From the IMG/VR virus record IMGVR_UViG_3300042475_000803, positions 1-28,929 of that record: DNA of 28,929 nt; one strand, written 5' to 3'. The notes beneath the pieces were generated by a model, which saw only the letters and a program-made list of their open reading frames with translations, did no database searches and was not told the origin of the DNA. A program made the translations under genes and the position numbers. Source of the DNA: a virus. Each line of letters opens with the position of its first letter. Positions within the stretch are counted from its first letter, which is position 1. Positions 4,331 to 28,166 of this stretch are shown here, piece after piece.

Positions 4331-4543
4331 ATGCTAAACGTAAATTACTTTATAGACTTCGTTCAAGAAACAAAGAGACAGTTCGTAAGATCAACTGTCT
4401 CTGATGAAAAAATCAAGGCTGGGCTGCTGAATTTTATTGACAAACAGACAGAACTGAGTAAAATAGTAACTAAGAACTTTGAAGAATTCAGTAAGATTGG
4501 TATTGATGCAATAACGAGTAAAGGAAATATTTGTAAGCCATGA
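4331..4543 (+). CDS. Small phasin-like protein
   Basis: This 70-residue, all-helical protein has an AAAGGA ribosome binding site just upstream of its ATG. Its stop overlaps the heme oxygenase start (ATGA). The pattern FIDKQTELSKIVTKNFEEFSK resembles the amphipathic helix of phasins (FVDTQTEFAKTVAKN-type), which coat polyhydroxyalkanoate granules in alphaproteobacteria and other bacteria. It is shorter than typical phasins (about 100-180 aa), so granule binding is only a suggestion. Its 3' part contains a near-consensus sigma70 promoter for ho1. It could instead be an unrelated small helical phage protein. Confidence 0.6.
   Translation: MLNVNYFIDFVQETKRQFVRSTVSDEKIKAGLLNFIDKQTELSKIVTKNFEEFSKIGIDAITSKGNICKP
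4437..4464 (+). promoter_or_regulatory. Sigma70-type promoter for ho1-pcyX
   Basis: TTGACA (4437-4442), a 16-base spacer, then TAAAAT (4459-4464): 11 of 12 consensus bases. It lies inside the phasin-like gene, about 75 bases before the heme oxygenase start. The same -35, spacer length and -10 recur before gene 41. Predicted to be read early by host RNA polymerase. Confidence 0.6.
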
Positions 4544-5133
4544 ACAATTTGAGAGAGCTCACGAAAGAAGAGCACAGAAGAGCAGAACGAACTGCTTTTA
4601 TGAATAGAATGTTAAAGAAAAAACTTACACCTTATCAGTATTACACGTACTTGAAGAATCAGTTACTTATGTACGTTACTCTAGAGTATTATGCGACAGA
4701 AGTAGGAATCTTCGGAGAGGATATCTTCGGCATATTAAGGTCGGCTGCTATCCTCGAAGATATTACGATCATGGAGTCAGAGTCCGAGATCTCGTTAAAA
4801 ACTGCCCCTACTCTACCCGCCGCAACTGCTTATGTAGAATACATTCATAAGATTAAAGAAGATAAAGACAAGCTTCTTGCACATATGTATGTTAGACACA
4901 TGGGAGACCTTTCCGGTGGCCAGATGATAAAGAAGCTAGTACCAGGACCAACTAACTTCTACGAGTTCGAAAGAGATGTCGATGAATTAAAGACTCTTAT
5001 TCGAAACAATCTACACGACGGTTTAGAGAAAGAAGCTAAAGTATGCTTTAGCATGGTTCAGAAATTTCTAGAAGAATTGGAGGATTACTTTGGAGGTATG
5101 GACCCCGCTGATTCAACTGTCAAAGAAGATTGA
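4540..5133 (+). CDS. ho1: Heme oxygenase (biliverdin-forming)
   Basis: Opens heme to biliverdin IX-alpha, CO and iron using O2 and reduced ferredoxin, in the cytoplasm. The proximal heme ligand is H12 in EEHRRAE. The distal helix carries GDLSGGQ at residues 122-128, the family hallmark. At 197 residues it is shorter than cyanobacterial HO1 (about 240), as is usual for phage copies. It overlaps the upstream gene by ATGA and the bilin reductase by 44 bases, so biliverdin production and its reduction are coupled in translation. A sigma70-type promoter lies 75 bases upstream. Cyanophage ho1 genes are known; here it sits with a PcyX-type reductase. Confidence 0.95.
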   Translation: MNNLRELTKEEHRRAERTAFMNRMLKKKLTPYQYYTYLKNQLLMYVTLEYYATEVGIFGEDIFGILRSAAILEDITIMESESEISLKTAPTLPAATAYVEYIHKIKEDKDKLLAHMYVRHMGDLSGGQMIKKLVPGPTNFYEFERDVDELKTLIRNNLHDGLEKEAKVCFSMVQKFLEELEDYFGGMDPADSTVKED

Positions 5134-5764
5134 AAGTATCTTTGACGATCACTATAGTAGGAACTCTAGCCTAGAACTATTCGATGGATGGAAAGATAAT
5201 ATCTGGAGTTCCAAGTATGTTCGAAAGTGTCACTTAAAGACGATTGACAATAGAGAGTCACAAAAACTCTGGCTTATGCATGTGAATATATTTCCGCACG
5301 AGCATTTTAACTTTCCAATCCTTGGTTTCGACATCGTGGCAGGCCCAAGTAAGATCACCGGATCGTTCTTTGACTTCTCTCCAACTACGGACGAAACTCC
5401 AGAACACCCATACCTGAGTTATATGAGAGACACGGCGAAGGATCTTTCATGGTCTAAACCTCGTGATCTTCCTGACTGGGCTCAGAGTATCTTCTCAACT
5501 TCAATGATCGCGGCAGGTAATTTAAAATCTGAGGAAGAGATCGATCAACTCTCAAAGACCTGCCTTCATCTCGTTGAATACTATGTAACGAATATGAAGA
5601 GCAATCTTTACGTCACGAATCCAATAAAGATCACTGAGAGACACAATCAATACTGTAGGAACCAAAAGCTAAATCCGCATCTTCACAGATCAATACTCTC
5701 GATGGGTATCTCTGAAAACGATAAAAACAACTACATAGATAGTGTTTTATTCGAGGAGATCTAG
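5090..5764 (+). CDS. pcyX: Ferredoxin-dependent bilin reductase, PcyX type
   Basis: Reduces biliverdin, the product of the overlapping ho1, with electrons from ferredoxin. PcyX enzymes yield phycoerythrobilin. The start is TTG 5090, set by GGAGG at 5079-5083 with a 6-base gap; no in-frame ATG fits. H64 (LMHVNIFP) and D81 (GFDIVAGP) are 17 residues apart, matching H88 and D105 of PcyA. This Asp-His pair is kept in PcyX and PcyA, whereas PebS has Asn at the His position. The C-terminal NPHLHR replaces the NDKTR of PcyA, so the Asp equivalent to D220 is Pro196. The length, 224 aa, suits the family. PcyX is preferred to PcyA because of the phage setting and absence of the clear Glu76 context; product specificity needs a tree or assay. 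Confidence 0.88.
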   Translation: MEVWTPLIQLSKKIESIFDDHYSRNSSLELFDGWKDNIWSSKYVRKCHLKTIDNRESQKLWLMHVNIFPHEHFNFPILGFDIVAGPSKITGSFFDFSPTTDETPEHPYLSYMRDTAKDLSWSKPRDLPDWAQSIFSTSMIAAGNLKSEEEIDQLSKTCLHLVEYYVTNMKSNLYVTNPIKITERHNQYCRNQKLNPHLHRSILSMGISENDKNNYIDSVLFEEI

Positions 5765-6102: not shown

Positions 6103-6336
6103 ATGATTGTCACAAGAACAGCAGAAAAGATACATATGGAAATCGCCTCCAAGCTTTCGAACGGCGCTACATATATCGATGCGCTAGTAGAATACGCGAA
6201 AGAAAATGACCTTGAGATTGAAACAGTCGCAGAGATCGTTAAGAAATCTTCGATACTCAAGGAAAAAATTCGTGAAGAAGCGGTTGCTGTAAGAATGGTG
6301 AAGAAGGAAGAGAATGGTCTCGTTAAATTATGCTAA
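6103..6336 (+). CDS. 33: Late-promoter transcription accessory protein gp33
   Basis: In T4, gp33 bridges host RNA polymerase to the gp45 clamp and activates late promoters together with gp55. This 77-residue protein has the family core YIDALVEYAKENDLEIETVAE followed by an ...LKEKIREEA helix, at the length usual for gp33. It lies in T4 gene order (33-59-32) and overlaps gene 59 by 23 bases. The presence of exact TATAAATA late promoters in this window fits a working gp33. An in-frame ATG at 6136 is an alternative start. Confidence 0.78.
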   Translation: MIVTRTAEKIHMEIASKLSNGATYIDALVEYAKENDLEIETVAEIVKKSSILKEKIREEAVAVRMVKKEENGLVKLC

Positions 6337-8246: not shown

Positions 8247-9332
8247 ATGAGTCTGTTGGATAAACTCGTAAAGAATAGTACCATTAAGTTGACTGCTCCG
8301 ATCATGGAGTCGAAAGTCTATGGTAAGAAAGACATGGCTCCGACTCCAGTTCCTATGGTTAACGTAGCTCTGTCTGGTCGTATCGATGGTGGTGTAGCAC
8401 CTGGTCTGCTCGTCCTTGCAGGTCCATCAAAACACTTTAAGTCTGCGTTCGCACTTCTGATGGCTGCAGCTTATCTTGAGAGAAATAAGGACGCAATCCT
8501 GTTGTTCTATGACTCGGAATTTGGTACTCCACAATCGTATTTTGAATCCTTTGGTATTGATATGGGTAGGACTGTTCATACTCCTATCACGAACGTGGAA
8601 GAACTTAAATTCGATATCTCTCAGCAGCTCGATAAGATCGAAAAGAAAGATAACGTCATTATCATTATCGACTCTGTCGGAAACCTTGCATCGAAGAAAG
8701 AAGTCGAAGACGCCCTTGACGGTAAGTCCGTTGCTGATATGTCTCGTGCAAAGGCTCTTAAGTCGTTGTTCCGTATCGTGACTCCACATCTCAATCTGAA
8801 GGATATTCCTTTGATTGCGGTTAACCATACGTATAAAGAAATCGGTCTCTTTCCTAAGGACATCGTTTCTGGTGGTACTGGTATCTACTATTCGGCAGAT
8901 GCTATTTGGATCATTGGTCGTCAACAGGATAAGGTTGGTACTGAGATCCAGGGTTATCACTTTGTTATCAACATTGAGAAATCTCGCCACGTCAAAGAAA
9001 AGTCTAAGATTCCGATTAGCGTAAGCTGGGAGGGTGGCATCGCAAAGTGGTCCGGTCTTCTTGAGGTTGCCGAAAAAGGTGGTTTCATTCGCAAGCCTAA
9101 GGTCGGTTGGCACGAGGCTGTGAACCCAGACACTGGAGAAATTATCAGCGAAAAGCTTCTTCGAGCAAAAGAAATTGTTGACAGTAAAGAATTTTGGAAT
9201 AAAATGTTTACAGAGACAAACTTTGGAGAGTACATTAAGAACGCTTACACCGTAGGCGGAAGTATTATTCTAAGGGATGACGATAGTGAAGTTACATACG
9301 TTGATGACGACTCAGAAGAAGGTGATGAATGA
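8247..9332 (+). CDS. uvsX: RecA-like recombinase UvsX
   Basis: Forms filaments on single-stranded DNA and catalyses strand exchange for recombination-dependent replication and repair. The 361-residue protein has a Walker A motif GPSKHFKS at 59-66 and Walker B VIIIIDS ending at D142. A YKEIGLFPKDIVSGGTG segment matches the DNA-binding loop region of phage RecA-like proteins, and the C-terminus is acidic. Length and motifs match T4 UvsX (391 aa). It overlaps gene 41 by four bases (ATGA). The uvsX-41 order is that of T4, and a promoter for gene 41 lies in its 3' end. Confidence 0.96.
   Translation: MSLLDKLVKNSTIKLTAPIMESKVYGKKDMAPTPVPMVNVALSGRIDGGVAPGLLVLAGPSKHFKSAFALLMAAAYLERNKDAILLFYDSEFGTPQSYFESFGIDMGRTVHTPITNVEELKFDISQQLDKIEKKDNVIIIIDSVGNLASKKEVEDALDGKSVADMSRAKALKSLFRIVTPHLNLKDIPLIAVNHTYKEIGLFPKDIVSGGTGIYYSADAIWIIGRQQDKVGTEIQGYHFVINIEKSRHVKEKSKIPISVSWEGGIAKWSGLLEVAEKGGFIRKPKVGWHEAVNPDTGEIISEKLLRAKEIVDSKEFWNKMFTETNFGEYIKNAYTVGGSIILRDDDSEVTYVDDDSEEGDE
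9178..9205 (+). promoter_or_regulatory. Sigma70-type promoter for gene 41
   Basis: TTGACA (9178-9183), a 16-base spacer, TAAAAT (9200-9205): 11 of 12 consensus bases, identical in both hexamers and spacing to the promoter before ho1. It is inside uvsX, about 125 bases before the gene 41 start. Confidence 0.55.
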
Positions 9333-10786
9333 TCGAAAAGGCAATCCTGTCGAATTTGATCTATAACGAAGACTATTGCCGTAAAGTGTTTCCTTATATT
9401 AAAGAGGAATACTTCGACGACAATAGTCTTCGTAAGATCTTTTCAACTTATACCGATTATATGAATGAATACAAAGAGCCGCCATCTATTGAGGCTCTTA
9501 AGATCTCTATCGATAAACGTAAGGATCTTAACGAGTCTTCATATAAAGAAGTGGTGACTCTTATTGACGAATTGAAAGTTGATAAGGATACGAACGAACA
9601 CTTTCTTATCAATGAAACGGAAAAGTTCTGTCAGGATAAGGATCTCTATAACTCAATTCGTAGAGCAATCCTTATTCTTGACGGGCAGGATAAAGAACTT
9701 GACAAGGGAGCAATTCCAAAGATACTTTCGGACTCCCTTGGCATCGGCTTTGACTCTCATATCGGTCATGACTTCCTTGAAGATGTTGAGTCTCGACACA
9801 GCTACTATCATCGTAAAGATGAACGCATCGCGTTTGATATTGAACTTCTGAATAAAGTAACAAAGGGCGGTCTTCCTCGTAAGTCTATGACTGTCCTGCT
9901 TGCGACTACCGGTGGTGGTAAGTCTCTCGTTAAGTGTCACATGGCTGCTTCGAGTCTTATGTTCGGAAAGAACGTTCTGTATATTACAATGGAACTTGCC
10001 GAAGAAGAAGTTGCGAGAAGGATCGACGCAAACATCATGGACATAACTCTTGATGAAGTTCGAGAGCTTCCTCTCGATGTTTTTGAAAAGAAGATGGCTA
10101 TCTTTAAACGCAAGACTCCAGGTAAACTTATCATTAAGGAATATCCGACTGGGTCTGCTCACTCCGGTCATTTCCGTCACCTACTGAATGAGTTGCGCCT
10201 GAAGAAGAACTTTACACCAGATATTATCTTCTTGGACTATCTGAATATCTGTTCGTCTTCAAGAGTAAAGGGAGCTGCGCAAGCAAACTCCTATACTCTC
10301 GTAAAATCTATCGCAGAAGAAGTTCGTGGTCTTGCGATGGAGTTTAATTTAGCTATCGTAACTTCTTCGCAGTTCAATCGCGGAGCGTATGATAGTTCTG
10401 ACGTTGAACTATCGAATACTTCAGAGTCCATGGGTATTACTCATACTGCAGATGCAATCTTCGGCCTAGTTACATCCGAAGAATTGTCAGACCGTCGCCA
10501 GATCATATTCAAACAGCTTAAAAACCGTTGGGGTGATCTTGGTCAGTATCGAAGATTTATCGTTGGGATCGACCGTGCAAAGATGAAACTGTTCGATGCT
10601 GAAGAGTCTGCTCAGAAAACTCTGTTTAAAGAACCGCAGGATGACCGAACGAATAAACGTGGTGAGACTAAATTTACGAGTGATGATGAAGACTCCTCTG
10701 TCTTTGATAAGGGTGCTTTCAATCAGCAGTGGGATATTAAACCTAAGGGCAAAAAGTCGTTATTTGAAGTAGGAGATCTGAAATGA
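9329..10786 (+). CDS. 41: Replicative DNA helicase gp41 (DnaB family)
   Basis: Hexameric 5'-3' helicase that unwinds the fork and works with primase. The 485-residue protein has an N-terminal helical domain (about 1-150) and a RecA-like motor domain with Walker A ATTGGGKS at 192-199, then LYITMELAEEEVARR, the Walker B region IIFLDYLNIC and a VTSSQFNRG sensor-type motif, as in DnaB-family phage helicases. T4 gp41 is 475 aa. It is loaded by gp59, encoded upstream. It overlaps uvsX and the following small gene by ATGA junctions. Confidence 0.96.
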   Translation: MIEKAILSNLIYNEDYCRKVFPYIKEEYFDDNSLRKIFSTYTDYMNEYKEPPSIEALKISIDKRKDLNESSYKEVVTLIDELKVDKDTNEHFLINETEKFCQDKDLYNSIRRAILILDGQDKELDKGAIPKILSDSLGIGFDSHIGHDFLEDVESRHSYYHRKDERIAFDIELLNKVTKGGLPRKSMTVLLATTGGGKSLVKCHMAASSLMFGKNVLYITMELAEEEVARRIDANIMDITLDEVRELPLDVFEKKMAIFKRKTPGKLIIKEYPTGSAHSGHFRHLLNELRLKKNFTPDIIFLDYLNICSSSRVKGAAQANSYTLVKSIAEEVRGLAMEFNLAIVTSSQFNRGAYDSSDVELSNTSESMGITHTADAIFGLVTSEELSDRRQIIFKQLKNRWGDLGQYRRFIVGIDRAKMKLFDAEESAQKTLFKEPQDDRTNKRGETKFTSDDEDSSVFDKGAFNQQWDIKPKGKKSLFEVGDLK

Positions 10787-10993: not shown

Positions 10994-11001
10994 TATAAAT
11001 A
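10994..11001 (+). promoter_or_regulatory. T4-type late promoter
   Basis: An exact TATAAATA lies 23 bases before the start of the nuclease-like gene, directly after the early terminator. This is the gp55/gp33-dependent late consensus of T4. It would drive the packaged-enzyme operon. Confidence 0.8.
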
Positions 11002-11023: not shown

Positions 11024-11809
11024 ATGCAATCTTTTAGAAGGTATATTATTGAAGTGGCTCAACAAGGTTTTCAATACGAAAGAAATGCTGTTGAAGCGTT
11101 AAAACCATTTGACATCGTACCAAAAAGTTTTGTTCCTGCTGGCGCTGGATCTGATATACCAGATCTTATGATTAAAAGACCTGGGCCTGGCCAGACAGCA
11201 ACCGGGTGTGAACTTAAGATCACTGCGGCATCTGCAGGTTCGTTAGTCATGAAATGGAACGATGGCAATTGGTCGATAGGTAGTGAGAATGAAACCAATG
11301 ACGAAAAACTATTTGTCATAGAACTCGCTAAACAAGTTGGGATACTTGACACAATCAAATCTTCTTGGAAGCAAGAACCATATAAGTTTACGAAGAATAG
11401 AAACGTTTTGTCTGAGATAGAAGGACTAAACAAAAGAGAAATATATTCAAAAGAGCTTTCTCGTTTTTCAGAAATTAAAGGTGTTATACCTGCAACAAAG
11501 ATAGAAGAATACTACAATAAGAAAAAGACTTATTATGTAAATGTTGGTACTGATGGGTTCTTTTTATTAGGAAATAACAATCCGCTTGGATTAAAGGGTG
11601 TTCCTTCATTTGGTAATGCCGCAAACGCTGGTTATAGGGCAAGAGTGCAGGCAAAAGGTGGCGGAACATATCAATTTACATTTGAAATGAGTTTTTCAAT
11701 ACCAAGAGCACGAAGATCTCCGTTTAACATTGCACCTACGATGGGAAAAACAGTTAACATAGATTTCGATGTGATGGAAAAAACATTAAAAGATCTTTTT
11801 GGAGTTTAA
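11024..11809 (+). CDS. PD-(D/E)XK nuclease-like protein with capsid-targeting N-terminus
   Basis: The first residues, MQSFRRYIIE, fit the T4 capsid-targeting pattern (aromatic at 4 and 7, I/L at 8, E at 10), which the prohead protease cuts after I-x-E. The mature part looks like a restriction-endonuclease fold: helix with E19, GSDIPDL with D44 and D47, then GCELK with E63 and K65, the D...ExK catalytic layout. The rest (261 aa in total) includes a Gly-rich segment near residue 205 and a basic patch PRARRS. Its stop overlaps the next gene. Predicted to be a virion-packaged DNA-cleaving enzyme. The nuclease call is from motifs only; its target is unknown. Confidence 0.7.
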   Translation: MQSFRRYIIEVAQQGFQYERNAVEALKPFDIVPKSFVPAGAGSDIPDLMIKRPGPGQTATGCELKITAASAGSLVMKWNDGNWSIGSENETNDEKLFVIELAKQVGILDTIKSSWKQEPYKFTKNRNVLSEIEGLNKREIYSKELSRFSEIKGVIPATKIEEYYNKKKTYYVNVGTDGFFLLGNNNPLGLKGVPSFGNAANAGYRARVQAKGGGTYQFTFEMSFSIPRARRSPFNIAPTMGKTVNIDFDVMEKTLKDLFGV

Positions 11810-11811
11810 TG

Positions 11812-12417
11812 ATGCTTTCATTTAAATCTTTCATAACCGAACAGACTCGCGGTAAAGGTCTAACGATCTTTGATATCGATGAGACTCTCTTTCGCACTTC
11901 TGCTAAGATACGAGTGATGAAGGACGGCAAGTTAGTTCGTTCACTCGATAATCAAGAATTTAATACTTATAAATTGAAAGATGGCGAGTCCTATAACTTC
12001 GGGGAGTTTGAGTCCGCAGAAGTCTTTCAGAAGACTTCAGTCCCCATCATGAAGATGATCGAAAAAGCAAAGGCGATCATTAAGAACGCCACGGCTGCAG
12101 GGTCTAGAGTCATTATCGTGACTGCTCGATCCGATTTCGACGATAAGAAAAAGTTCCTTGACACATTCCGTCGTTATGGTATAGATATTGATAACGTATA
12201 TGTTGAGAGAGCTGGAAATCTAAAACTTGGATCATCTGCAAAGAACAAGAGGTTCGTCTTCCATAAGTATCTTCGTGGCGGTAAGTACGAGAGAGTTCGT
12301 TTCTTTGACGATGCCATGTCGAACATTACAATGTTTAAGGCTCTCGCAAAACAGTATCCAGGTATTTCCTTCGAGGCATATCACGTAAAGCACGACGGAT
12401 CAATAAGGAAAGTATGA
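11812..12417 (+). CDS. HAD-family phosphatase with capsid-targeting N-terminus
   Basis: The second of two adjacent ATGs (11812) is chosen because it gives MLSFKSFITE, an exact fit to the capsid-targeting pattern; ATG 11809 would add one Met. HAD motif I is FDIDETL with D21, D23 and T25, motif II is IIVTARSD, and motif IV is RFFDDAMSN. This architecture resembles the 3'-phosphatase domain of phage polynucleotide kinases, although no kinase P-loop is present. The gene (201 aa) sits between a nuclease-like and a ligase-like gene with overlapping ends, which supports a role on nucleic acid ends. A small-molecule phosphatase is the alternative. Confidence 0.85.
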   Translation: MLSFKSFITEQTRGKGLTIFDIDETLFRTSAKIRVMKDGKLVRSLDNQEFNTYKLKDGESYNFGEFESAEVFQKTSVPIMKMIEKAKAIIKNATAAGSRVIIVTARSDFDDKKKFLDTFRRYGIDIDNVYVERAGNLKLGSSAKNKRFVFHKYLRGGKYERVRFFDDAMSNITMFKALAKQYPGISFEAYHVKHDGSIRKV

Positions 12418-13646
12418 TGATAACTTTTAGAGAATACCTCGCCGAGGAAAAGAATCTCCATATGGAGCACCTTGAAGATGCCATTCTAAACCTCGGTGTT
12501 GATGGAACTCGTTCGTCAATCAACTTCCTCCGCTCGCTTCGAGACATGCTTGCTGGAAGATCTAAAGCTCCTATCAACGTAACCGTTAAGTGGGATGGCG
12601 CACCTGCCGTATTCGCTGGAATAGACCCTTCTGACCGTAAGTTCTTCGTCGCTAAGAAGGGTATCTTCAACAAGAATCCAAAGGTCTATAAAACAGACGA
12701 AGACATTGATGCCGATACCTCAGGCGATTTGAATACAAAATTGAAACTTGCTCTTGCTGAGCTTCCAAAGCTTGGCATCAAGGGTGTGATACAAGGTGAC
12801 TTTCTATATGCGAGAGAAGATATCAAAGAAGTTAACATTAATGATGAACCGCATATTACTTTTCATCCTAATACGATTGTTTACGCGGTACCTGAAAACA
12901 GCAAGCTTGCTAAGGAAATCCTCAGATCTAAGATCGGAGTGGTATGGCACACTCGATACAGAGGAGACTCTTTTGAAACAATGTCAGCGAGTTTTGGAGA
13001 AGAGATCGCAAGCGGCCTTAAGAAAGTAAATTCTGTCTGGTCCGTCGACGCCGTCTATAAAGACGTGTCCGGAACAGCTAACTTTACTTCAAACGAGACC
13101 GAAGCCGTCACTGAGATACTATCCAAGGCAGGAAAGCTCTTCAACTCGATTAAGAGGGAGACACTTAACGGCATCTCTGAGAACGAAGAGAGACTTATGA
13201 GAGTAAAGACCTTCGTAAACTCCAAGATCCGTCAGGGAGAAAGAGTTCGCAACTCTGCGGTGTTCGTCAACGACCTAATCGTATATCTGAACCGATACTA
13301 CGACGGCGAGATTGAAAAGAAAAAGACAGACGCTGGCAAGAAGGCTGTGATGGCTAAAAAAGACGAAGTAATGTCTTACTTTGACAAGACTCAGAGATCT
13401 CAGATCGTAGCGATGTTTGATCTATACAATCATATCATAGACGCAAAACTATTAATCATACGAAAGCTCGATAGAGCAAAGAGAATTGGTACCTTCCTCA
13501 AGACAGCTGACGGGTATAAGGTAACCGAGCAGGAAGGTTTTGTCGCAATCGACCACATGGGTAAGAACGCAGTTAAACTTGTAGACCGACTCGAATTTAG
13601 TAAAGCAAACTTCTCCGCGGAATACATAAAGGGATGGCAACGATAA
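12417..13646 (+). CDS. Ligase-like nucleotidyltransferase with capsid-targeting N-terminus
   Basis: ATG 12417 gives MITFREYLAE, which fits the capsid-targeting pattern; ATG 12414 adds one Met. Residues 56-64 read VKWDGAPAV. K58 in KWDG matches motif I of the covalent nucleotidyltransferases (DNA and RNA ligases, capping enzymes), where the Lys takes AMP or GMP. A later VIQGDFLY resembles motif III of RNA ligases. The C-terminal half is helical and basic. At 409 aa it is ligase-sized. A clear motif IV or V was not identified, so ligase activity is inferred. It overlaps both neighbours. Phage proteins of this type are usually annotated as unknown. Confidence 0.7.
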   Translation: MITFREYLAEEKNLHMEHLEDAILNLGVDGTRSSINFLRSLRDMLAGRSKAPINVTVKWDGAPAVFAGIDPSDRKFFVAKKGIFNKNPKVYKTDEDIDADTSGDLNTKLKLALAELPKLGIKGVIQGDFLYAREDIKEVNINDEPHITFHPNTIVYAVPENSKLAKEILRSKIGVVWHTRYRGDSFETMSASFGEEIASGLKKVNSVWSVDAVYKDVSGTANFTSNETEAVTEILSKAGKLFNSIKRETLNGISENEERLMRVKTFVNSKIRQGERVRNSAVFVNDLIVYLNRYYDGEIEKKKTDAGKKAVMAKKDEVMSYFDKTQRSQIVAMFDLYNHIIDAKLLIIRKLDRAKRIGTFLKTADGYKVTEQEGFVAIDHMGKNAVKLVDRLEFSKANFSAEYIKGWQR

Positions 13647-15448
13647 TGAGTAATGCAATTAACGAGTTGAAGAAAATGCTTCTTGAAGCAGCAGCTGCAC
13701 AGAAGAAGTCTCAAGAGCCAAATCTTAAAGAAGAAATTATAATTGCGCCTACGGCCATTGAGGAAGAAGACGTTGTAAAAAAGACGATGCACTATTTAAA
13801 TAGTCCACGTAAATCCGAACCTATTGTACGTAATGTGGCTGAAAATATAGAAACTCAAAGATGGAACGATCCTCTTCGAAGAGAACCTAGCGAAAAATTT
13901 GTAACATTTAAAGAAATGAACGATCATTACGGTTTGTTCTTACAGCGCATTCAACAACAAATGTCGTCAATCGGTGGTGGCGGTGAAGTTAACTTTTCTA
14001 GATTAGATGATATTAATTCAGCAACTGTGGGCACAAACAAGTATCTAACTTACGATCAAGCTACCAAAAAATTCATCTTTGATACGATAGAAACTGGCGA
14101 TGGTCTTTACTTAAATGGCAGTAATGAAGTTTCTCTTTCTGTTGCTTCATCAAGTGATCTTGGCGGGATAAAAATAGGTACTGCATTTACGATAGATGGA
14201 TCCGATAGACTTCAACTGAACGCGGCAACTAATGATATAATAGGCGGTGTTAGATTAGGACCCGGTGTCACTACCAATAACCAAGGCCAAATTATCATTA
14301 GCTCTGAAGGGCTCGATTTTAGTTTCGGTGACTTCCAAGCAACAGTTCCAGCTAATGGTGCTGCTACATTAAGTTCAGTGAATCTTGGTCAAAACATTGA
14401 TATAGTATCATCAGCCAATGGTGTTATTAATGTTATCGGCAATTTTCATGTGCATACACCAGATACATATGATCCAATCGACCCGGATGCAAATGGCGCC
14501 GTTTTTAGAGTAGACGAATCCGGCAAAGTTCGTATACTTGTGCCGAACGCTAATAGTAGTGAAGGCGCTGTTGAAATTATTGGTGGTTCGGGCGGAGTTT
14601 TCCAATCGCCAGTTAACACTGGAGTTATGTTACACGTTACAGGTATTGCCGGGTCACCTGGCGTACCTAGTAGAATATACAATGACTCACAAAATGCATT
14701 TTCTGCGTTTGTTTCGAGAAGATATAATAATACCGCAGCATCACCATCCGCGGTGTTGGCCGATGAAGAAATTATGCGTCTCAGCGGTACCGCACATAAT
14801 GGCACGATAATACCAGGAACAGCCAATCAACGTATTGTCTATAAGGCGTTAGGTAACCAAACCTTAACTAATCAAGGCGGTTATATTGAATTGTGGGCTA
14901 CTCCGATAAACACCACGACATTAGCTAAAATTGCCACTGTGGACAGTACAGGTATTACACTTGAATCAGGTAAGGTATTAACAGGTAATGTGTCAGGCTC
15001 TGCCGGTTCAGTTGCTGCTGCAAACGTTACTGGCACAACATTAGCAAGCAATGTAGTTACAAGTAGTTTGACTAGTGTGGGCACATTGGGTAGCTTAACC
15101 GTCACAAATCTTGTTACTGCTAGAAACTATCACGGTCAATCTCGTGATGCTGGAACACTAGGTGCGGCAGGCACGCTGACTATTGACTTTGCTACAGATC
15201 ATAATGTGTTAGTTGAACTTACTACTACTGCGGTCATTGCGTTCTCTAATATTACAGCAGGCAAGACTGTGACCGTATTGGTTAAGAATGATACTGGTAG
15301 CAATCGTGCTGTGACAACAGGCGTTAACGCTGGCAATCACACTGGGAATAACACTGCTCCTAACGTCAATGATGGTAGAACTGGTGTGTTTATCTATCGC
15401 ACATTTGGCACAGCAACCGGTGATGTCTATGTTGAGATCAGCGTTTAA
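13646..15448 (+). CDS. Tail-fibre-like virion protein
   Basis: ATG 13646 overlaps the stop of the ligase-like gene (TAATG); an earlier in-frame ATG at 13634 is possible. The 600-residue protein has a helical N-terminus (about 1-110, with LLEAAAAQKK), a GGGGEVNFSRLDDI linker, and then a long Gly/Ser/Thr/Asn-rich beta region. That region contains the SLTSVGTLGSLTVTNLV and SGSAGSVAAANVTGT motifs common in marine phage fibre shafts. The C-terminal 100 residues form a beta-domain (DHNVLVELTTTAVI..., ending GDVYVEISV). This suggests a trimeric receptor-binding or head-decorating fibre. It has no capsid-targeting N-terminus although it is in the same operon. Confidence 0.72.
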   Translation: MSNAINELKKMLLEAAAAQKKSQEPNLKEEIIIAPTAIEEEDVVKKTMHYLNSPRKSEPIVRNVAENIETQRWNDPLRREPSEKFVTFKEMNDHYGLFLQRIQQQMSSIGGGGEVNFSRLDDINSATVGTNKYLTYDQATKKFIFDTIETGDGLYLNGSNEVSLSVASSSDLGGIKIGTAFTIDGSDRLQLNAATNDIIGGVRLGPGVTTNNQGQIIISSEGLDFSFGDFQATVPANGAATLSSVNLGQNIDIVSSANGVINVIGNFHVHTPDTYDPIDPDANGAVFRVDESGKVRILVPNANSSEGAVEIIGGSGGVFQSPVNTGVMLHVTGIAGSPGVPSRIYNDSQNAFSAFVSRRYNNTAASPSAVLADEEIMRLSGTAHNGTIIPGTANQRIVYKALGNQTLTNQGGYIELWATPINTTTLAKIATVDSTGITLESGKVLTGNVSGSAGSVAAANVTGTTLASNVVTSSLTSVGTLGSLTVTNLVTARNYHGQSRDAGTLGAAGTLTIDFATDHNVLVELTTTAVIAFSNITAGKTVTVLVKNDTGSNRAVTTGVNAGNHTGNNTAPNVNDGRTGVFIYRTFGTATGDVYVEISV

Positions 15449-16386: not shown

Positions 16387-16932
16387 ATGAAAGAATGGTT
16401 CGCAGGAAAAACTGTTGCGGTTGTTGGTAATGCGGCTTCGCTCTTACAACAAAAGTACGGTAAAGAAATAGATCGAGCAGAAGTAGTGGTTCGTATCAAC
16501 CGTGGTGGATATCGCTTCACCGAGTTTCCATCTCAGATGGGATCGCGTCTTGATATCTGGTGTATGCAGAACATTAACCAAAACAAAGCATACTTTAATA
16601 AACCTCATACAAGACACGTACGTAAGATGCAGATGGATACTGTAGACGTATCCCCATTGCATATAGAGATGGCAGATCTGGTGTTCTCTGATGAGGATAG
16701 AAAGCAGTTAGACGGTAACTTGCCAAAGAAATCTTCGACTGGTCTAAGAGTCTTATACTATATAAAGAAGCAGAACCCACAAAAAGTTTTTGCATATGGC
16801 TTCGATTGGAAAGCATCTTATTCCTGGCACGAGAGAAGAAAATGTATCGCTCATGACTTTGGAACAGAACGAAATTACTGTTTGAATAACATATTTAACG
16901 ATGATACATTTTTACTTAGAGGTTCATCGTGA
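16387..16932 (+). CDS. GT29 sialyltransferase-like protein (copy 1)
   Basis: This 181-residue protein matches the sialylmotifs of family GT29. Motif L is KTVAVVGNAASLLQQKYG, followed by EID...VVVRINRGG. Motif S is SSTGLRVLYYI...VFAYGFDWK. The VS-type HxxxxE is H156...E161 (HDFGTERNYC). GT29 enzymes transfer sialic acid or a related nonulosonic acid from a CMP donor. No CMP-sugar synthetase is in the window, so the donor would come from the host. It is about half the length of eukaryotic GT29 enzymes, so it is a minimal core. It overlaps the next gene (GTGA) and is one of three paralogues here. The sugar is unknown. Confidence 0.8.
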   Translation: MKEWFAGKTVAVVGNAASLLQQKYGKEIDRAEVVVRINRGGYRFTEFPSQMGSRLDIWCMQNINQNKAYFNKPHTRHVRKMQMDTVDVSPLHIEMADLVFSDEDRKQLDGNLPKKSSTGLRVLYYIKKQNPQKVFAYGFDWKASYSWHERRKCIAHDFGTERNYCLNNIFNDDTFLLRGSS

Positions 16933-17831
16933 TTACATCTTCTATATTTTACAAAACTCTAAAGTCTGATAGAAAAGATGAAAGATTTGAGGCAATTCAA
17001 AAAACATTTCCAAATTGCTCTGTCGTGAAAAACTCGGTTTGGAATAAATGCAATCTTGCTATCATACAGGGATGGCCAAAGCCAGGATCCGATACACCTC
17101 ATAATATGTTTAGAAGATACGTCATAGAAAAACAGAAAAACCATTGCGGCCACATTTTAACTGTTGATGGGAACATCTTTAATTATCTAAGTAAAAACAT
17201 TTATTTTAGATACAGCATGAACGGCATATTTGCAAACACTGGTTATTATTTTGATAAAGAGATAGATCCAAACAGATGGACTAATATAAGTAAGGTAACC
17301 GAATGCAAACTTAAACCTTGGAGAAAAACCGGAGATCATATTCTCATACTTATGCAAAAGAGTTCCGGTTGGACTATGTGTGGTTTAGACGGATTAAAGT
17401 GGTGCACTTCAACGATAAAAAAGATAAGGGAATATTCCGATAGAGATATTGTCATTCGATTACACCCAACCGATAATCATTTAGTAAATGGATACATTAG
17501 TAACTTAGAAAAAAGTAGAGTAACCATATCGAGAAATAAAAGCATTTTAGAAGATTTAAAAAACGCATGGTGTTCCATTACATATAACAGTTCTCCTGGA
17601 GCCGTTAGCGCGATTGAAGGCGTTCCGGTGTTTATCATGGACCCGGATTGGAAAAAGAGCCCGGTGGCAGATGTTGGAAATTATGACATGTCAATGTTAG
17701 AAAGTCCATATATAATAGATAGAGAAACTTGGATCCAAAAGATAGCAATGTCTCATTACAGTATTCAAGATATAAAAGATGGCCTCCTGTGGAAAGAAGT
17801 ATCAAAATATTTAGACGTAGGTAAGATATGA
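16929..17831 (+). CDS. GT-B-like glycosyltransferase, capsule-type
   Basis: The GTG start at 16929 overlaps the previous stop. In the 300-residue protein, the second half carries VIRLHPTDNH near residue 177 and SITYNSSPGAVSAIEGVPVF near 220. This is the pattern of the nucleotide-sugar-binding half of GT-B transferases of the capsule/CDP-glycerol type, where a Ser/Gly-rich loop and Glu contact the donor. The N-terminal half is less recognisable. It is AT-rich and similar in plan to the protein at 18616. Substrate unknown. Its stop overlaps the next start (ATGA). Confidence 0.6.
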   Translation: MITSSIFYKTLKSDRKDERFEAIQKTFPNCSVVKNSVWNKCNLAIIQGWPKPGSDTPHNMFRRYVIEKQKNHCGHILTVDGNIFNYLSKNIYFRYSMNGIFANTGYYFDKEIDPNRWTNISKVTECKLKPWRKTGDHILILMQKSSGWTMCGLDGLKWCTSTIKKIREYSDRDIVIRLHPTDNHLVNGYISNLEKSRVTISRNKSILEDLKNAWCSITYNSSPGAVSAIEGVPVFIMDPDWKKSPVADVGNYDMSMLESPYIIDRETWIQKIAMSHYSIQDIKDGLLWKEVSKYLDVGKI

Positions 17832-18619
17832 AAAGAATTAATGCAGTAACTTGTTATAATACAAGCGGGTTCAGAGAGACTGGATCGCTGCTCATCAATG
17901 GGTTTATTCGATACTGGCCAAAAGAAGTATCATTAACTGTGTATGTTGACGACCCTATTCCAAAGAACGAACTCATTCGAGACGAGAGAGTTACATATAA
18001 GATATTAAATCAGAAAGATCTAATAGCTTTTAAAGAAAGACACGCGAACAACTTGGAAGCAAATGGTCTCGGAAGTAAATCTGAAGCAGGTCAGAAAAAT
18101 TACAGATACGACGCAGTAAGATTTAGTCATAAAGTGTTTGCTTTGTTCCAATTCCTTGAAGAGAACGATACAGATGTTCTTATATGGTTAGATGGCGATA
18201 GCAGAACTCATTCATCTGTCTCTGTAAATGATATTAACAGTTGGTGCCCAAACGAAAAGTTCGCTGGATATCTTGCCCGCCCTTGGATGTACACTGAAAC
18301 TGGTTTTCATATCTTAAATACGAAACATCCAATATCCAAAGAGTTTCTTAATGCTTGGAAGCAATACTATATTGATGATAGTATCTTTCGCCTTGATATG
18401 TGGACGGATTGTCATACTTATGATGCAGCAAAGACAAAGTTTAACGATGATCACTGGTATAACCTTAGCCCACCAATTAAGAATAATCATCCTTTCATTA
18501 ACGGGCCTCTCGGTATGTTTATGGACCATATGAAGGGTCCTCGTAAAAAGAAAGGGACTAGTAATAAGAGGGATCTAGTCGTAAAGAGAAACACAGAATA
18601 CTGGAACAAAGTAAAATGA
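17828..18619 (+). CDS. GT-A-fold glycosyltransferase
   Basis: This 263-residue protein begins with a strand and loop typical of GT-A enzymes (INAVTCYNTSGFRETGSLLI, then VSLTVYVDDP). At residues 120-125 it has WLDGDS, the DxD metal-binding motif (D122, D124) that holds the nucleotide-sugar phosphates. HILNTKHPISKEFLNAW and a late NHPFINGPLGMFMDHMKG segment may form the acceptor side. The C-terminus is strongly basic (RKKKGTSNKR). It overlaps both neighbours (ATGA), within a single co-translated glycan operon. Donor and acceptor cannot be read from the sequence. Confidence 0.72.
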   Translation: MKRINAVTCYNTSGFRETGSLLINGFIRYWPKEVSLTVYVDDPIPKNELIRDERVTYKILNQKDLIAFKERHANNLEANGLGSKSEAGQKNYRYDAVRFSHKVFALFQFLEENDTDVLIWLDGDSRTHSSVSVNDINSWCPNEKFAGYLARPWMYTETGFHILNTKHPISKEFLNAWKQYYIDDSIFRLDMWTDCHTYDAAKTKFNDDHWYNLSPPIKNNHPFINGPLGMFMDHMKGPRKKKGTSNKRDLVVKRNTEYWNKVK

Positions 18620-19497
18620 TGTGCGCATTTCTTTCAGGAAAAAAAGACCAAGACTCGTATGTTAAATCTTTTGGTTACACAAACGAAGCAAAAATTGTTT
18701 ATACACGTCATCATGTATACAAACACCAAACTTCACGGCATGCACCACCGCATCTAAGAATTAAAAAGCTATTACCTAGTTATGAATCTGTGGTATTTGC
18801 TGGTCTGCTAAGAGGAAACGCTCATATTTTGGATATGGCCGTGAATGATAATATGAATTTCTATTACATAGATCACGCATACTTTAAACCAGGTTATAGA
18901 TATCCAAACTGGATGAGAGTTGTAAAAAACGGATTTGTTCAGAATACCATATTACCTGATGTTAACAGTGATCGTTTAAAACTATTTGATATTAACTTTT
19001 TAGACTATAATTTTAACAAGAAACAAAATATTGTCGTGTTTCCACCGAGCGATACCGTTGCTCGAGTATTCAATCATACAAACTGGGAAGCTGAAACTAT
19101 AGAAAAAATAAAACAATACACGGATAGGCCGATCGTAGTTAGAAGAAAGACCGGGCCTGTCATGGATAATCTAATGATTAATGTTAAGTACGAAGAAAAA
19201 CACGATTACGAAGAATCTCTTGACGATGTTCTAAACAATGCTTACTGCGTAGTTGCTTTCAATAGTGCAGTAGCTCTTACGGCATTGGAAAGAGGAATAC
19301 CTGTGATATGTGAAAGATACTGTGCCGCGTTTCCGTTAACCCATTCATTTGAAGAGATAGAGCATTTAAAAGAAAAAGAAAGGTTTCATCTATTCGCGAG
19401 TCTTGCGTGGGGTCAGTTTACGATGGAAGAAATAAAAGACAAGAAAACATTCAAATTCATAAACGGTGCAACACAATGGAAGGGACCTATAAAATGA
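18616..19497 (+). CDS. GT-B-like glycosyltransferase, related to the gene at 16929
   Basis: This 293-residue protein has FAGLLRGNAHILDMAVN and YIDHAYFKPGYRYP in the first half. The second half has a strand/loop IVVFPPSD, PIVVRRKTG and the donor-site-like VVAFNSAVALTALERGIPVI near residue 215, matching the NSSPGAVSAIEGVPVF of the upstream gene. The two therefore look like distant paralogues. The start is ATG 18616, overlapping the previous TGA, with ATG 18619 as an alternative. The stop overlaps the aminotransferase-like gene start (ATGA). Substrate unknown. Confidence 0.6.
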   Translation: MMCAFLSGKKDQDSYVKSFGYTNEAKIVYTRHHVYKHQTSRHAPPHLRIKKLLPSYESVVFAGLLRGNAHILDMAVNDNMNFYYIDHAYFKPGYRYPNWMRVVKNGFVQNTILPDVNSDRLKLFDINFLDYNFNKKQNIVVFPPSDTVARVFNHTNWEAETIEKIKQYTDRPIVVRRKTGPVMDNLMINVKYEEKHDYEESLDDVLNNAYCVVAFNSAVALTALERGIPVICERYCAAFPLTHSFEEIEHLKEKERFHLFASLAWGQFTMEEIKDKKTFKFINGATQWKGPIK

Positions 19498-20654
19498 AAT
19501 ACAAACTTGCGAGTGATACTTGGGGCCAGGAAGAAATAGATGCTATTCATCGAGTAATCGCAAGTGGGCGATATACTATGGGTGAAGAGGTTAAGAAGTT
19601 TGAAAAGCAATTCGCTAAGTTCTTCGGTAGTAAATATGCAGTCATGACGAATAGCGGAAGTAGTGCTAACTTAATAGCACTTGCTGCGCTCGCTCTCAAT
19701 CCTAAGTACAAGAATAAAGGAAACATCGTTGTTCCTGCTGTGAGTTGGAGTACAACGTATTTCCCAGTACATCAGTGGGGATATAAGCTTCGCTTTGTTG
19801 ATGTTGATCCTAACACGTTCAATATTAATACAAAGAAAGTGATTGCGGCGATCGATGAAGATACGGCAGCCGTATTTGTTGTGAACCTACTAGGTAACCC
19901 AGCAGAACTTGAAGAACTTAAGACGATATGCGACGAACGCAGCATTGCTCTTCTTGAGGATAACTGTGAGAGTCTAGGAGCTTGGGAAGGTTCATCATTC
20001 TGTGGATCCATTGGTGAGATGGGCACGTTTAGTTTCTTCTTTAGCCATCATATGCAGACTATGGAAGGCGGAATGGTTCTTACGAACGACGACCTAACAT
20101 ACGAGTATCTAAAGAGTCTGAGAGCTCACGGTTGGATACGTGATATGTCTGAAGGTAGTACTCTACATCAGAAAACTGGCGATCCGTTCGAGGATAGCTT
20201 TAAGTTTGTTCTTCCTGGTTACTGTGTTCGTCCGCTTGAGATGAGCGGCGCCGTTGGGCAAGAGCAACTCAGGAAGTGGCCAGATATGATGACGAAGCGT
20301 AGACAGAACGCGACCGCAGCCAAAGCCGCATTTCGTAACGTCCCTGGTATTAGATTACAATCAGAACATGGTACCAGTAGTTGGTTTGGTTTTGGATTAG
20401 TCCTAGAAGGACATCTAAAGGGAAGAAGAAAAGAAGTCATTCAGATCCTCACAGAGAATGAAGTTGAAACTAGACCGATCGTAGCAGGAAACTTTATGAA
20501 GAACCCAGTGATCAATCTTTTGAACTGGGATAGTGTTGGAACGTTTGAAGGTGCGGATGATCTTCATGAAAATGGATTCTTTATAGGAAACGACTGTGTT
20601 AACTTGGTCGATAATATAAACATGGTCGCAGATATAATAAGGAACATAAAATGA
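19494..20654 (+). CDS. PLP-dependent sugar 3-dehydratase, ColD/RfbH-like (DegT family)
   Basis: The chosen start ATG 19494 overlaps the upstream stop (ATGA); an in-frame start at 19407 would run through the upstream gene. The 386-residue protein belongs to the DegT/DnrJ/EryC1/StrS family: GRYTMGEEVKKFEKQFAKFF near the start, TNSGSSANLIALAAL at about 45, LLEDNCESLGA at about 155. At the usual Schiff-base Lys it has His: SFFFSHHMQTMEGGMV with H185. His replaces Lys in ColD and the CDP-hexulose 3-dehydratases, which remove the 3-hydroxyl of 4-keto-6-deoxy sugars instead of transaminating. With gmd next door, the likely substrate is GDP-4-keto-6-deoxymannose, giving a 3,6-dideoxy sugar. Confidence 0.88.
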   Translation: MKYKLASDTWGQEEIDAIHRVIASGRYTMGEEVKKFEKQFAKFFGSKYAVMTNSGSSANLIALAALALNPKYKNKGNIVVPAVSWSTTYFPVHQWGYKLRFVDVDPNTFNINTKKVIAAIDEDTAAVFVVNLLGNPAELEELKTICDERSIALLEDNCESLGAWEGSSFCGSIGEMGTFSFFFSHHMQTMEGGMVLTNDDLTYEYLKSLRAHGWIRDMSEGSTLHQKTGDPFEDSFKFVLPGYCVRPLEMSGAVGQEQLRKWPDMMTKRRQNATAAKAAFRNVPGIRLQSEHGTSSWFGFGLVLEGHLKGRRKEVIQILTENEVETRPIVAGNFMKNPVINLLNWDSVGTFEGADDLHENGFFIGNDCVNLVDNINMVADIIRNIK

Positions 20655-21628
20655 AGACTGCGCTAATTACAGGATTCCCTGGCCAAGATGCATGTTACCT
20701 TGCTGATTTCTTGTTAGAAAAAGGTTACGTTGTATACGGAGTCGTTAAGAGATATACAAGTCCAAATTGGAGCAACATAGAGTTTCTAGATTTATTTAGT
20801 AAGGGTCTTAAGACAATCGTAGGAGATGTTACTGATCCATGTAGCCTGATGGATGTAATGGAGATAGTGCAACCCGACGAGTTCTACAACCTCGCAGCAC
20901 AGAGCTTCGTTGGTGGATCTTGGAGACTTGCTTATGTAACTACTCACGTTGATGCGCTCGGTCCTCTTAATTGTCTTGAGGCAATTCGTCGTATCAAACC
21001 TGATACTAAGTTCTATCAAGCTGGTACGAGCGAGATGTTTGGAAACAGTAGTATAGACGGAAGGCAGACAGAAAAGACACCTTTCGAACCAGTAAGTCCA
21101 TACGGCATTGCTAAACTCTATGGATACCACATTACACGAAACTATAGAGAGAGCTACGATGCTTTTGCCTGCACAGGTATTCTATTCAATCACGAGTCTC
21201 CTATTCGTGGAATAGAGTTCGTCTCAAGAAAGATAACCGACGGCGTTGCAAGAATCGTAACTGGAAAGGGTGATAAGATTATCCTTGGTAACCTAGATGC
21301 AGAACGCGATTGGGGTCATGCAAAGGATTACGTACGTGCTCAGTGGTTAATGTTGCAACAGGACAAACCTGAAGACTTTATCATTGCAACTGGAGTTAAA
21401 CACAGCGTAAGGGATCTATGCAGGATCGCGTTCTTGGCGGCTGGGATATCAAACTGGGAAGACTATGTAGTATCCGATAATGAATTCCAAAGACCGAATG
21501 AGCTTCACAGCCTACACGCAGACTCGGACAAAGCAAAGAGACTACTTGGTTGGGAACCAAAGTATTCGTTTGAGTCTATGATATGCGAGATGGTCGCATG
21601 CGATATTGAAAGACACAGTATAACATGA
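20651..21628 (+). CDS. gmd: GDP-mannose 4,6-dehydratase
   Basis: Converts GDP-D-mannose to GDP-4-keto-6-deoxy-D-mannose with bound NADP. The 325-residue extended short-chain dehydrogenase has the TGFPGQD nucleotide-binding loop at 7-13, the NLAAQSFV motif, AGTSEMFG, and the catalytic pair Y151 and K155 in SPYGIAK. It also has the Gmd-specific FNHESPIRG and LGNLDAERDWGHAKDYV. Length matches bacterial Gmd (about 325-370). It overlaps the ColD-like gene by four bases, and its product is the expected substrate for that enzyme. It overlaps the following SDR by ATGA. Confidence 0.94.
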   Translation: MKTALITGFPGQDACYLADFLLEKGYVVYGVVKRYTSPNWSNIEFLDLFSKGLKTIVGDVTDPCSLMDVMEIVQPDEFYNLAAQSFVGGSWRLAYVTTHVDALGPLNCLEAIRRIKPDTKFYQAGTSEMFGNSSIDGRQTEKTPFEPVSPYGIAKLYGYHITRNYRESYDAFACTGILFNHESPIRGIEFVSRKITDGVARIVTGKGDKIILGNLDAERDWGHAKDYVRAQWLMLQQDKPEDFIIATGVKHSVRDLCRIAFLAAGISNWEDYVVSDNEFQRPNELHSLHADSDKAKRLLGWEPKYSFESMICEMVACDIERHSIT

Positions 21629-22167
21629 AGGTAGTAGTAACTGGTCATACTAGCGGTCTTGGCAAGACGCTATACGATAGACTATCAGAGAAACATCACA
21701 CAATAGGTCTCAGTAGGTCAAACGGACACAATCTTTCAAATGGTGTCGAGTCATTTTTAATAGAAAATTTTGATGTCTATATTAATAACGCGTATCATGC
21801 TTATGCGCAAGTTGATCTATTATATAAGTTATTTGAACAAAATAAATATAGAAACTGCACAATCATTAACATTGGAAGTGTAAGCGCTGACGGTAATAAA
21901 GACACCGTTAATGAATATGCTATTCATAAATCTGCATTGGAAAAAGCTTGTTCTCAGCTTCAGTTAATTGACACCGGCTGCAAAGTCATTCATTTAAAAC
22001 TTGGAAGAATGAACACTCCAATGACGGATTCCAAAAAAGAATACCCACGCATAGATACGGATTACATCGCAAATGTAGTTGAGTGGATGCTACACCAACC
22101 CGAAAAAATGTTCTTTAAGAACTTAACGATAGATATAATGCATAGTAGAAGAAAGGAAGCGTCATGA
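21625..22167 (+). CDS. Short-chain dehydrogenase/reductase
   Basis: This 180-residue classical SDR has TGHTSGLGK at residues 6-14 (TGxxxGxG cofactor site), an NNAY variant of the NNAG motif, the Ser of INIGSVSADG, and the YAIHK catalytic pair (Y98, K102). It lacks some C-terminal length of full classical SDRs (about 250) and is far shorter than ColC-type extended SDRs. From its position after gmd and the ColD-like gene it could reduce the 4-keto sugar, but that is inference. It overlaps both neighbours. Confidence 0.8.
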   Translation: MKVVVTGHTSGLGKTLYDRLSEKHHTIGLSRSNGHNLSNGVESFLIENFDVYINNAYHAYAQVDLLYKLFEQNKYRNCTIINIGSVSADGNKDTVNEYAIHKSALEKACSQLQLIDTGCKVIHLKLGRMNTPMTDSKKEYPRIDTDYIANVVEWMLHQPEKMFFKNLTIDIMHSRRKEAS

Positions 22168-27212: not shown

Positions 27213-27213
27213 A

Positions 27214-28090: not shown

Positions 28091-28097
28091 CTACTTT

Positions 28098-28105: not shown

Positions 28106-28166
28106 AAGTAAGTAGATCTAGTATCAGCAATTCATGTTAGGCAATCAATTTCTAAGGACAGAATAA

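Follow-up and report, generated by a model that had tools for sequence, protein, structure and literature searches.

Background

The closest described relatives of the locus reported here are the internal head proteins of phage T4, a group of T4 genes encoding a nuclease, an RNA ligase and a phosphatase, and a DUF6267 locus of cyanophages. We analyzed IMG/VR virus record IMGVR_UViG_3300042475_000803, a viral contig whose whole stretch of 28,929 bases is called the window below, and within it three genes at positions 11024-13646 that encode a nuclease-like protein (NUC), a phosphatase-like protein of the HAD superfamily (HAD) and a ligase-like protein (LIG). With moderate confidence, we propose that these are three nucleic-acid enzymes that are packaged in a T4-type head and injected, and that the ligase is the constant member of the arrangement and its upstream partner varies. 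The three genes, and the features described within and directly before them, are on the plus strand.

The first ten residues of the T4 internal protein IPIII suffice for packaging, and mutations indicate that residues 4 and 7 govern targeting and residues 8 and 10 govern processing (PMC9026906, in the portions available). The N-terminal peptides of the window proteins fit these four positions of T4 IPII and IPIII, a late promoter motif precedes the genes, and the protease and capsid families found in relatives match those of T4. T4 cargo includes the restriction inhibitor IPI and the ADP-ribosyltransferase Alt, whereas the window cargo consists of a predicted nuclease, HAD phosphatase and ligase.

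Genes for a nuclease, a ligase and a phosphatase also lie close together in T4, as denA, rnlA and pseT (endonuclease II, RNA ligase 1 and the polynucleotide kinase (PNK)-phosphatase). Unlike the window proteins, RnlA and PseT have N termini that lack a targeting peptide, and hhalign indicates different protein families; PseT, unlike HAD, is annotated as a kinase as well. T4 Rnl1 and PseT were tried as sequence relatives of LIG and HAD, and were rejected because hhalign gives only short motif matches.

In annotated cyanophages a gene of the DUF6267 family follows gp41, as LIG appears to do in the window, and in phage S-SM1 this T4-GC71 (DUF6267)/T4-GC190 locus includes a tagged neighbor that was found in virions. 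Neither DUF6267 by name nor a packaged ligase with swapping partners was found in the openly licensed literature searched. The same holds for a packaged nuclease-phosphatase-ligase set, with PMC7824862, PMC9026906, PMC9958956, PMC5694885 and PMC10229621 included in the portions available.

A constant ligase-like gene and its varying neighbor

Of the 50,697 phage records searched, 455 contain DUF6267 relatives. For each of the three proteins used as query, the 80 best loci were kept, out of at least 596 (LIG), 133 (NUC) and 207 (HAD) confirmed relatives (loci L002-L081, L082-L160 and L161-L238). Rows with a middle part identical to that of an earlier row were dropped, and genes within three genes of each other are called nearby.

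The 80 loci closest to LIG comprise 64 distinct ones, of which 37 have three genes on both sides. NUC is nearby in 14, HAD in 7, and both in 1, which is the lineage of the window itself. With NUC as query, 44 distinct loci have LIG nearby in 21 cases, HAD in 4 and both in 4 (the same lineage, L107, L109 and L131). With HAD as query, the corresponding figures for 40 distinct loci are 9 for LIG, 3 for NUC and 2 for both (the same lineage and L223). These numbers replace an earlier count of 24 loci with all three genes, which was not deduplicated. A fixed, conserved trio, which the initial annotation suggested seeking in other phages, was rejected because both partners lie near LIG in only 1 of 64 distinct loci; a few other lineages appear through the NUC and HAD queries. 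In the arrays of L107, L109, L131 and L223, the targeting peptide is on LIG only. Only one contig beyond the window lineage has it on all three proteins, at L178 and L034 (two separate loci from a single record, with identity of about 60 to 81% in parts), and there a few unread bases separate HAD from LIG.

The remaining counts by slot and position, and those for signatures, promoters and the strict peptide pattern, pool loci from all three queries, so that the shares of individual families are biased. The gene directly upstream of LIG is NUC in 23 of 100 distinct loci, HAD in 12 and another gene in 62, and in 3 the contig ends there. When genes with an open 5' end are excluded, the gene is peptide-tagged in 93 of 100 cases at the LIG position, 53 of 97 at the position before it and 20 of 91 at the second position before it, compared with 0 to 15% at the other 14 positions.

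The other same-strand upstream proteins of at least 150 amino acids number 52 and form 24 clusters. A D-x-x-x...[ESDHN]-x-K signature is present in 36 of the 52 (15 of the 24 clusters) versus 134 of 968 control genes, but it serves as description only: these very sequences were used to draw up the pattern by eye, and several of the matches look spurious. A PD-(D/E)XK reading of these other genes therefore rests on a pattern fitted after they had been seen. Among genes that precede HAD-LIG pairs, four of seven carry the signature (L006, L035, L166 and L174) and three lack it (L169, L173 and L057). When the 24 clusters were aligned to NUC with hhalign, cluster c_L058 matched across the core with 53% probability; several others aligned at the N-terminal peptide only, and the HAD and LIG control profiles reached 25% and 20%. 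None of three upstream families compared with sequence profiles of the PDB gave a match below E 0.3.

Tagged genes in related loci include matches to ART-PolyVal (L171:6603-7172, below the Pfam cut-off), HD_4 (L013:12150-12722) and Zeta_toxin/AAA_33 (L076:4171-5013). In a Pfam scan of 20 tagged or upstream proteins, 16 had either no match over the cut-off worth naming or none at all. The best-supported picture from these comparisons is that LIG is the constant member, and that the preceding gene varies, is usually tagged and often appears to carry a nuclease-like signature. As a separate observation, another tagged protein (L088:7991-8527) resembles ADP-ribosyltransferases by eye only and has no Pfam match.

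Predicted enzymes

LIG (12414-13646; 410 amino acids) belongs to DUF6267 (PF19782; E 8e-112), its sole Pfam family at E <= 1. No named RNA ligase family exceeded its curated cut-off in Pfam, no ligase model in NCBIfam was matched at E <= 1, and a sequence profile gave no convincing match in the PDB. The predicted structure, which has a predicted local distance difference test (pLDDT) score of 89.9, adopts an RNA-ligase-type nucleotidyltransferase fold with a helical insert at about residues 226-355. VIA-align aligned this model to 998 chains, 324 of them with Z of 2 or more. Ligases make up all 50 of the 50 matches listed, with many entries repeating the same enzymes. The best are Naegleria RNA ligase (Z 9.0), T4 Rnl2 (7.5) and T4 Rnl1 (7.2), and the first 27 are all RNA ligases (Z 9.0 to 6.8), with DNA ligases starting at 6.7.

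The putative catalytic residues of LIG are strongly conserved. Motif I, K59-W-D-G62 (12588-12599), includes the predicted nucleotidyl lysine; motif IV is E374-G-F-V377 (13533-13544), and the region of motif V is K388-L-V-D-R392 (13575-13589), in which R392 is invariant as well as K388. Residues K59, D61, G62, Q127, D129, Y157, E374, G375, V377 and K388 are invariant in all 56 relatives, and also in a diverse set of 11 that includes seven named phages and is 29-53% identical to the window protein. Q127 and D129 are in the acidic motif III. The motif order I, III, IIIa, IV, V is one that we take to be common to LIG and RNA ligases. In its nucleotidyltransferase fold LIG resembles Naegleria Rnl, T4 Rnl2, T4 Rnl1, TbREL1 and fungal Trl1. 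Unlike these enzymes, it has DUF6267 as its only Pfam match, reads QGD at motif III and has the helical insert before motif IV, much of which is missing from the short members of S-SM1 and S-SSM6a.

The C-terminal OB domain and motif VI of ATP-dependent DNA ligases were not found in LIG: its chain ends 22 residues after K388, and the model shows mainly helices in the other added regions. Since RNA ligases are the nearest folds and an OB domain could not be accommodated, the substrate is more likely RNA than DNA. On the basis of the model, we read LIG as a new RNA-ligase-type nucleotidyltransferase family, for which we infer a joining activity. Another peptide-tagged protein, at L175:7753-8667 (phrog_12709, no Pfam match), has a KVDG motif and possibly represents a second ligase-like family.

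NUC (11024-11809; 261 amino acids; phrog_26930) matches no Pfam family at E <= 1 and no curated family. Its PD-(D/E)XK residues are D47 (11162-11164) and the ExK of E63-L-K65 (11210-11218); these three charged residues, and E19 in an upstream helix, are invariant in 39 of 39 aligned proteins, the most divergent of which is 19% identical to NUC of the window. The predicted structure (pLDDT 93) is matched best by HhaI in VIA-align (Z 9.2 over 179 residues, 5.1 A), followed by SPARDA (6.2 and 5.2), HinP1I (5.5) and DdmD (4.0). Entries of these four account for the first eight matches (Z 9.2 to 3.0), and the matched chains are presumably all of the PD-(D/E)XK type. In a Foldseek search of viral models, NUC matches P-SSM2 protein Q58MG2 (E 1.3e-18), and its sequence profile matches Holliday junction resolvase 7bgs in the PDB (E 0.005). 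The PD-(D/E)XK nuclease fold is thus well supported as a prediction, and we infer nuclease activity from it.

NUC shares this fold and the E, D, ExK core with HhaI, HinP1I and Holliday junction resolvases. It differs from them in having an N-terminal targeting peptide and no curated family match, and, unlike in the setting of HhaI and HinP1I, no methyltransferase was recognized among the window proteins scanned. Cellular genomes yielded 26 pattern matches and no relatives by tblastn, a search that detects close relatives only.

HAD (11809-12417; 202 amino acids) contains all of HAD motifs I to IV, including D22-I-D24 of motif I (11872-11880) and D167-D168 of motif IV (12307-12312). Residues D22, D24, T105, K147, D167 and D168 are invariant in 21 of 21 aligned proteins. 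In Pfam, DUF2608 is matched at 25.5 bits (cut-off 22.6), and Acid_phosphat_B falls below its cut-off. The nearest phage family is phrog_415, annotated as polynucleotide kinase (E 1.3e-10), and a sequence profile gave no convincing match in the PDB.

The initial annotation named a PD-(D/E)XK nuclease-like protein, a HAD phosphatase and a KWDG ligase-like protein. For NUC, motifs, predicted structure and VIA-align agree on the fold, and for HAD the conserved motifs fit the predicted phosphatase. The ligase part stands as to the fold and the invariant K59, D61 and G62, but the tryptophan W60 is not fully invariant. The lysine that had been given as K58 is K59, and is residue 58 only if counted from the second Met. 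Structure prediction, which had been suggested as a check, gives a nuclease fold for NUC and a ligase fold for LIG, with nothing in either fold to refute that annotation.

Capsid-targeting peptides

The predicted capsid-targeting peptides are MQSFRRYIIE in NUC (11024-11053), MLSFKSFITE in HAD (11812-11841) and MITFREYLAE in LIG (12417-12446). The latter two follow an additional Met, and are numbered from the second Met because many relatives have a single one. T4 IPII and IPIII start with MKTYQEFIAE. All three window peptides have aromatic residues at positions 4 and 7, I or L at 8 and E at 10, and so agree with T4 at every one of these positions, as the initial claim of a peptide on each protein implied.

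The strict pattern M..[FY]..[FY][ILV].E is found in 62 of 95 LIG, 35 of 45 HAD and 15 of 57 NUC relatives, in 64 of 1932 other genes in the fetched loci, and in 2 of 3866 shadow open reading frames (ORFs). Counts under the strict pattern differ from those under a looser one, and the deduplication of the two sets also differs. Some relatives of NUC read MDSFKGYISE-MAAQQGFQYE and others begin directly with MAAQQGFQYE; many of the untagged ones start there, at the edge of the domain. The peptide thus behaves as a removable module. In the models, the first ten residues have low confidence (pLDDT 58 in NUC and 35 in LIG).

Four further genes of the window, starting at 26415, 27492, 27782 and 28167, fit the peptide positions, and all seven tagged genes recur in G001, a record of 217,966 bases from the same lineage in which NUC and HAD match those of the window at 100% identity. 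Nine of the 282 picked genes of G001 fit the looser pattern, compared with a shuffled expectation of 2.6 and a maximum of 7 in 200 shuffles, and 1 of its 410 shadow ORFs does so. Peptidase_S77 (the gp21-type protease) and the Gp23 capsid protein are each encoded in 9 of 10 large relatives, including G001, the tenth being a record of 99 kb; both were read in these relatives and not on the window fragment itself.

Two observations concern the 3' end of the window. The gene at 28167, in the tagged block 26415-28929, sits behind its own TATAAATA at 28098. An 822-amino-acid cytidyltransferase-DUF5824 protein without a canonical peptide is encoded at 23937-26405, and similar enzymes (T4-GC190) are virion proteins of S-SM1.

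Related loci in named phages

An annotated cytidyltransferase gene lies directly 3' of the DUF6267 gene in five of seven named phages. In C48C1 one small gene, which carries the peptide, is between the two, and no cytidyltransferase is annotated in the stretch fetched from S-SSM6a. The cytidyltransferase itself has the peptide in four of eight cases (S-SM1, P-SSM2, S-SM2 and DSL-LC02) and lacks it as annotated in S-8S53, P-HM1, ACG-2014i and C48C1. Unlike the window, therefore, S-SM1 and DSL-LC02 carry the peptide on the cytidyltransferase and not on the ligase. Most of the untagged DUF6267 proteins of named phages start close to the domain.

T4-GC190 of S-SM1, encoded by the gene after DUF6267, starts with MKKFSAFLNE, and it was detected together with gp21 in purified S-SM1 virions by mass spectrometry (Sullivan et al., PMC3037559, in the portions available). 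By analogy, this detection is the nearest to experimental support for packaging at the locus, although it does not prove that the peptide is the cause. Packaging of NUC, HAD and LIG in the head is likely, because their peptides fit the T4 positions, the lineage has gp21 and gp23, and the tagged neighbor in S-SM1 is found in the virion.

Gene arrangement and putative late promoter

The ORF of NUC (11024-11809) shares 1 base with that of HAD (11809-12417), which in turn shares 4 with that of LIG (12414-13646). A late promoter motif of the T4 type, TATAAATA, occupies 10994-11001 and ends 22 bases 5' of the first ATG, in agreement with the initial description of three successive overlapping genes behind such a motif. 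The window has four matches to TATAAATA, all on the plus strand, which is an ordinary number (shuffle mean 1.95, with 4 or more in 17 of 100 shuffles). Across the fetched loci, 42 of 77 peptide-tagged runs whose start leaves at least 25 bases of upstream room for a promoter have the motif in the preceding 110 bases; among comparable untagged genes the figure is 131 of 469 (Fisher p 9e-6). The window also encodes homologues of gp59 and of the late co-activator gp33 (6103-6336). Late expression of NUC, HAD and LIG, as predicted from the motif, is likely.

A fourth gene (13634-15448), with a weak match to tail fibers, overlaps the end of LIG by 13 bases, and the transcript may therefore extend past LIG. 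Upstream, the ORFs at 8247-9332 and 9329-10786 appear by inspection to encode UvsX and gp41. No RNA families at the gathering threshold and no tRNAs were found in the window.

Proposed function and alternatives

In the proposed mechanism, NUC, HAD and LIG would be made late, probably from one promoter, and the ten-residue peptide would draw each protein into the prohead core, where the gp21 protease would cut after Glu10, as suggested by homology to T4 IPII and IPIII. The mature enzymes would stay in the capsid, enter the host with the DNA and all act before any phage gene is expressed. The HhaI-like NUC most likely would cleave DNA of the host or of a competitor. LIG most likely would nucleotidylate itself at K59 and then seal or adenylate nucleic-acid ends, and HAD most likely would remove a terminal or small-molecule phosphate. 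Injected nucleases are feasible, since T4 packaged and delivered fusions of EcoRI and of staphylococcal nuclease (PMC9026906, in the portions available). G001 separately encodes an Rnl1-type RNA ligase, a DNA ligase and an AAA_33 (PNK-like) protein, and that the phage has untagged ligases and a PNK-like gene of its own is an argument that the packaged enzymes act specifically at entry.

Several results weigh against this proposal. Plain Foldseek searches of the PDB gave no match at E <= 0.001 for the model of LIG or for that of NUC, and VIA-align, the source of the Z score of 9.2 for NUC, re-aligned Foldseek's own candidates and comes with the warning that top Z values of 7 to 8 are often seen. 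HAD aligns with T4 PseT in hhalign only around DxD, with a probability of 12%. Under the looser pattern, the peptide is absent from 41 of 67 distinct NUC relatives, 15 of 59 HAD relatives and 8 of 108 LIG relatives. Among named phages, DUF6267 has the peptide in C48C1, and lacks it as annotated in six of seven (S-8S53, P-HM1, DSL-LC02, S-SSM6a, ACG-2014i and S-SM1). Finally, according to the available portions of PMC3037559, earlier work on S-PM2 had not found its counterpart of T4-GC190 in virions of that phage.

It is possible, if rather unlikely, that the proteins are independent injected effectors in a cargo bay and share the targeting peptide only. NUC would then act against host or rival DNA and HAD on a signaling nucleotide or a protein, and LIG would repair or modify nucleic acid. 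The mixture of NUC, HAD and other genes in the slot before LIG agrees with such a cargo bay, as do the tagged genes with matches to ART-PolyVal, HD_4 and Zeta_toxin/AAA_33, and T4 packages Alt and IPI, which have unrelated roles (PMC9026906, in the portions available). The frequent nuclease-like signature in that slot, a descriptive pattern found by eye, weighs against this reading.

Only tentatively, we also suggest that virions deliver a nuclease-ligase pair, in which the restriction-type nuclease differs from lineage to lineage and the RNA-ligase-like enzyme is conserved. The nuclease would attack nucleic acid of the host or of a rival. Nucleic acid of the phage itself would be resealed by the ligase, with ends prepared by the phosphatase, and an arms race would replace the nuclease but leave the ligase in place.

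DUF6267 might instead be a nucleotidyltransferase that does not ligate and that caps or adenylates RNA, DNA or protein, perhaps together with the cyanophage cytidyltransferase. A common fold is no proof of joining, the cytidyltransferase gene often follows directly, and one PHROG profile spans both domains. All 50 of the fold neighbors listed are ligases, with RNA ligases the best, and we regard such a function as unlikely.

The initial annotation suggested that the three proteins could together cut, clean and reseal nucleic acid. In a concerted system of this type they would work on one substrate, for example in repair of RNA after attack by a host anticodon nuclease at entry. Three end-processing activities are predicted in one overlapping run of genes, the functionally similar T4 genes are also near each other, RNA ligases are the nearest matches to LIG, and 32 predicted tRNA genes of G001 (L252:10870-19360 and L253:276-9400, at about 50.9-69.4 kb) could be nuclease targets. 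The trio is seldom kept together, though, the fold of NUC resembles DNA endonucleases, and no kinase was recognized among the tagged genes of the window that were scanned. G001 has its separate ligase and AAA_33 genes, and none of its nine tagged genes lies in the part of the record that holds these and the tRNA genes. Concerted action of this kind is accordingly quite unlikely. One tRNA of the G001 set is labeled Pyl, with anticodon cta.

That the N-terminal peptides are chance or folding elements is very improbable: they are missing from many homologues of NUC and from some of HAD and LIG, but the strict pattern is rare in shadow ORFs, a discrete leader separates tagged from untagged homologues, and the tagged neighbor in S-SM1 is a virion protein. 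Least probable is that the peptides are real and the proteins serve as core or structural filler without catalysis, as the suggested role of T4 IPIII in head assembly (PMC9026906, in the portions available) might imply, given that the alignments show no variation at the predicted catalytic residues.

Other features of the window

A heme oxygenase gene (PF01126) adjoins one for a ferredoxin-dependent bilin reductase (PF05996) at 4540-5764, and the two form a phage bilin pathway. The region 2248-4293 encodes a single protein with CHASE2 and adenylate/guanylate cyclase catalytic domains, which is unexpected on a phage contig, and 15-1646 combines a curlin repeat and an F5/8 type C domain in one protein. 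A long block of sugar-related genes at 16387-23898 includes an ORF similar to GT29 sialyltransferases and, by inspection only, aminotransferase-like and dehydratase-like ORFs.

Conclusions

Our proposal of packaged, injected enzymes around a constant ligase gives DUF6267 a testable function, and it predicts a new family of the ligase type in which a helical region is inserted. The analysis also suggests that the T4 capsid-targeting peptide may serve as a sequence tag for injected proteins in uncultured phages. Around one locus, this tag finds predicted nucleases, phosphatases, an ADP-ribosyltransferase-like protein, HD-domain proteins and kinases. The question of which proteins phages inject may thus be made searchable by means of the peptide.

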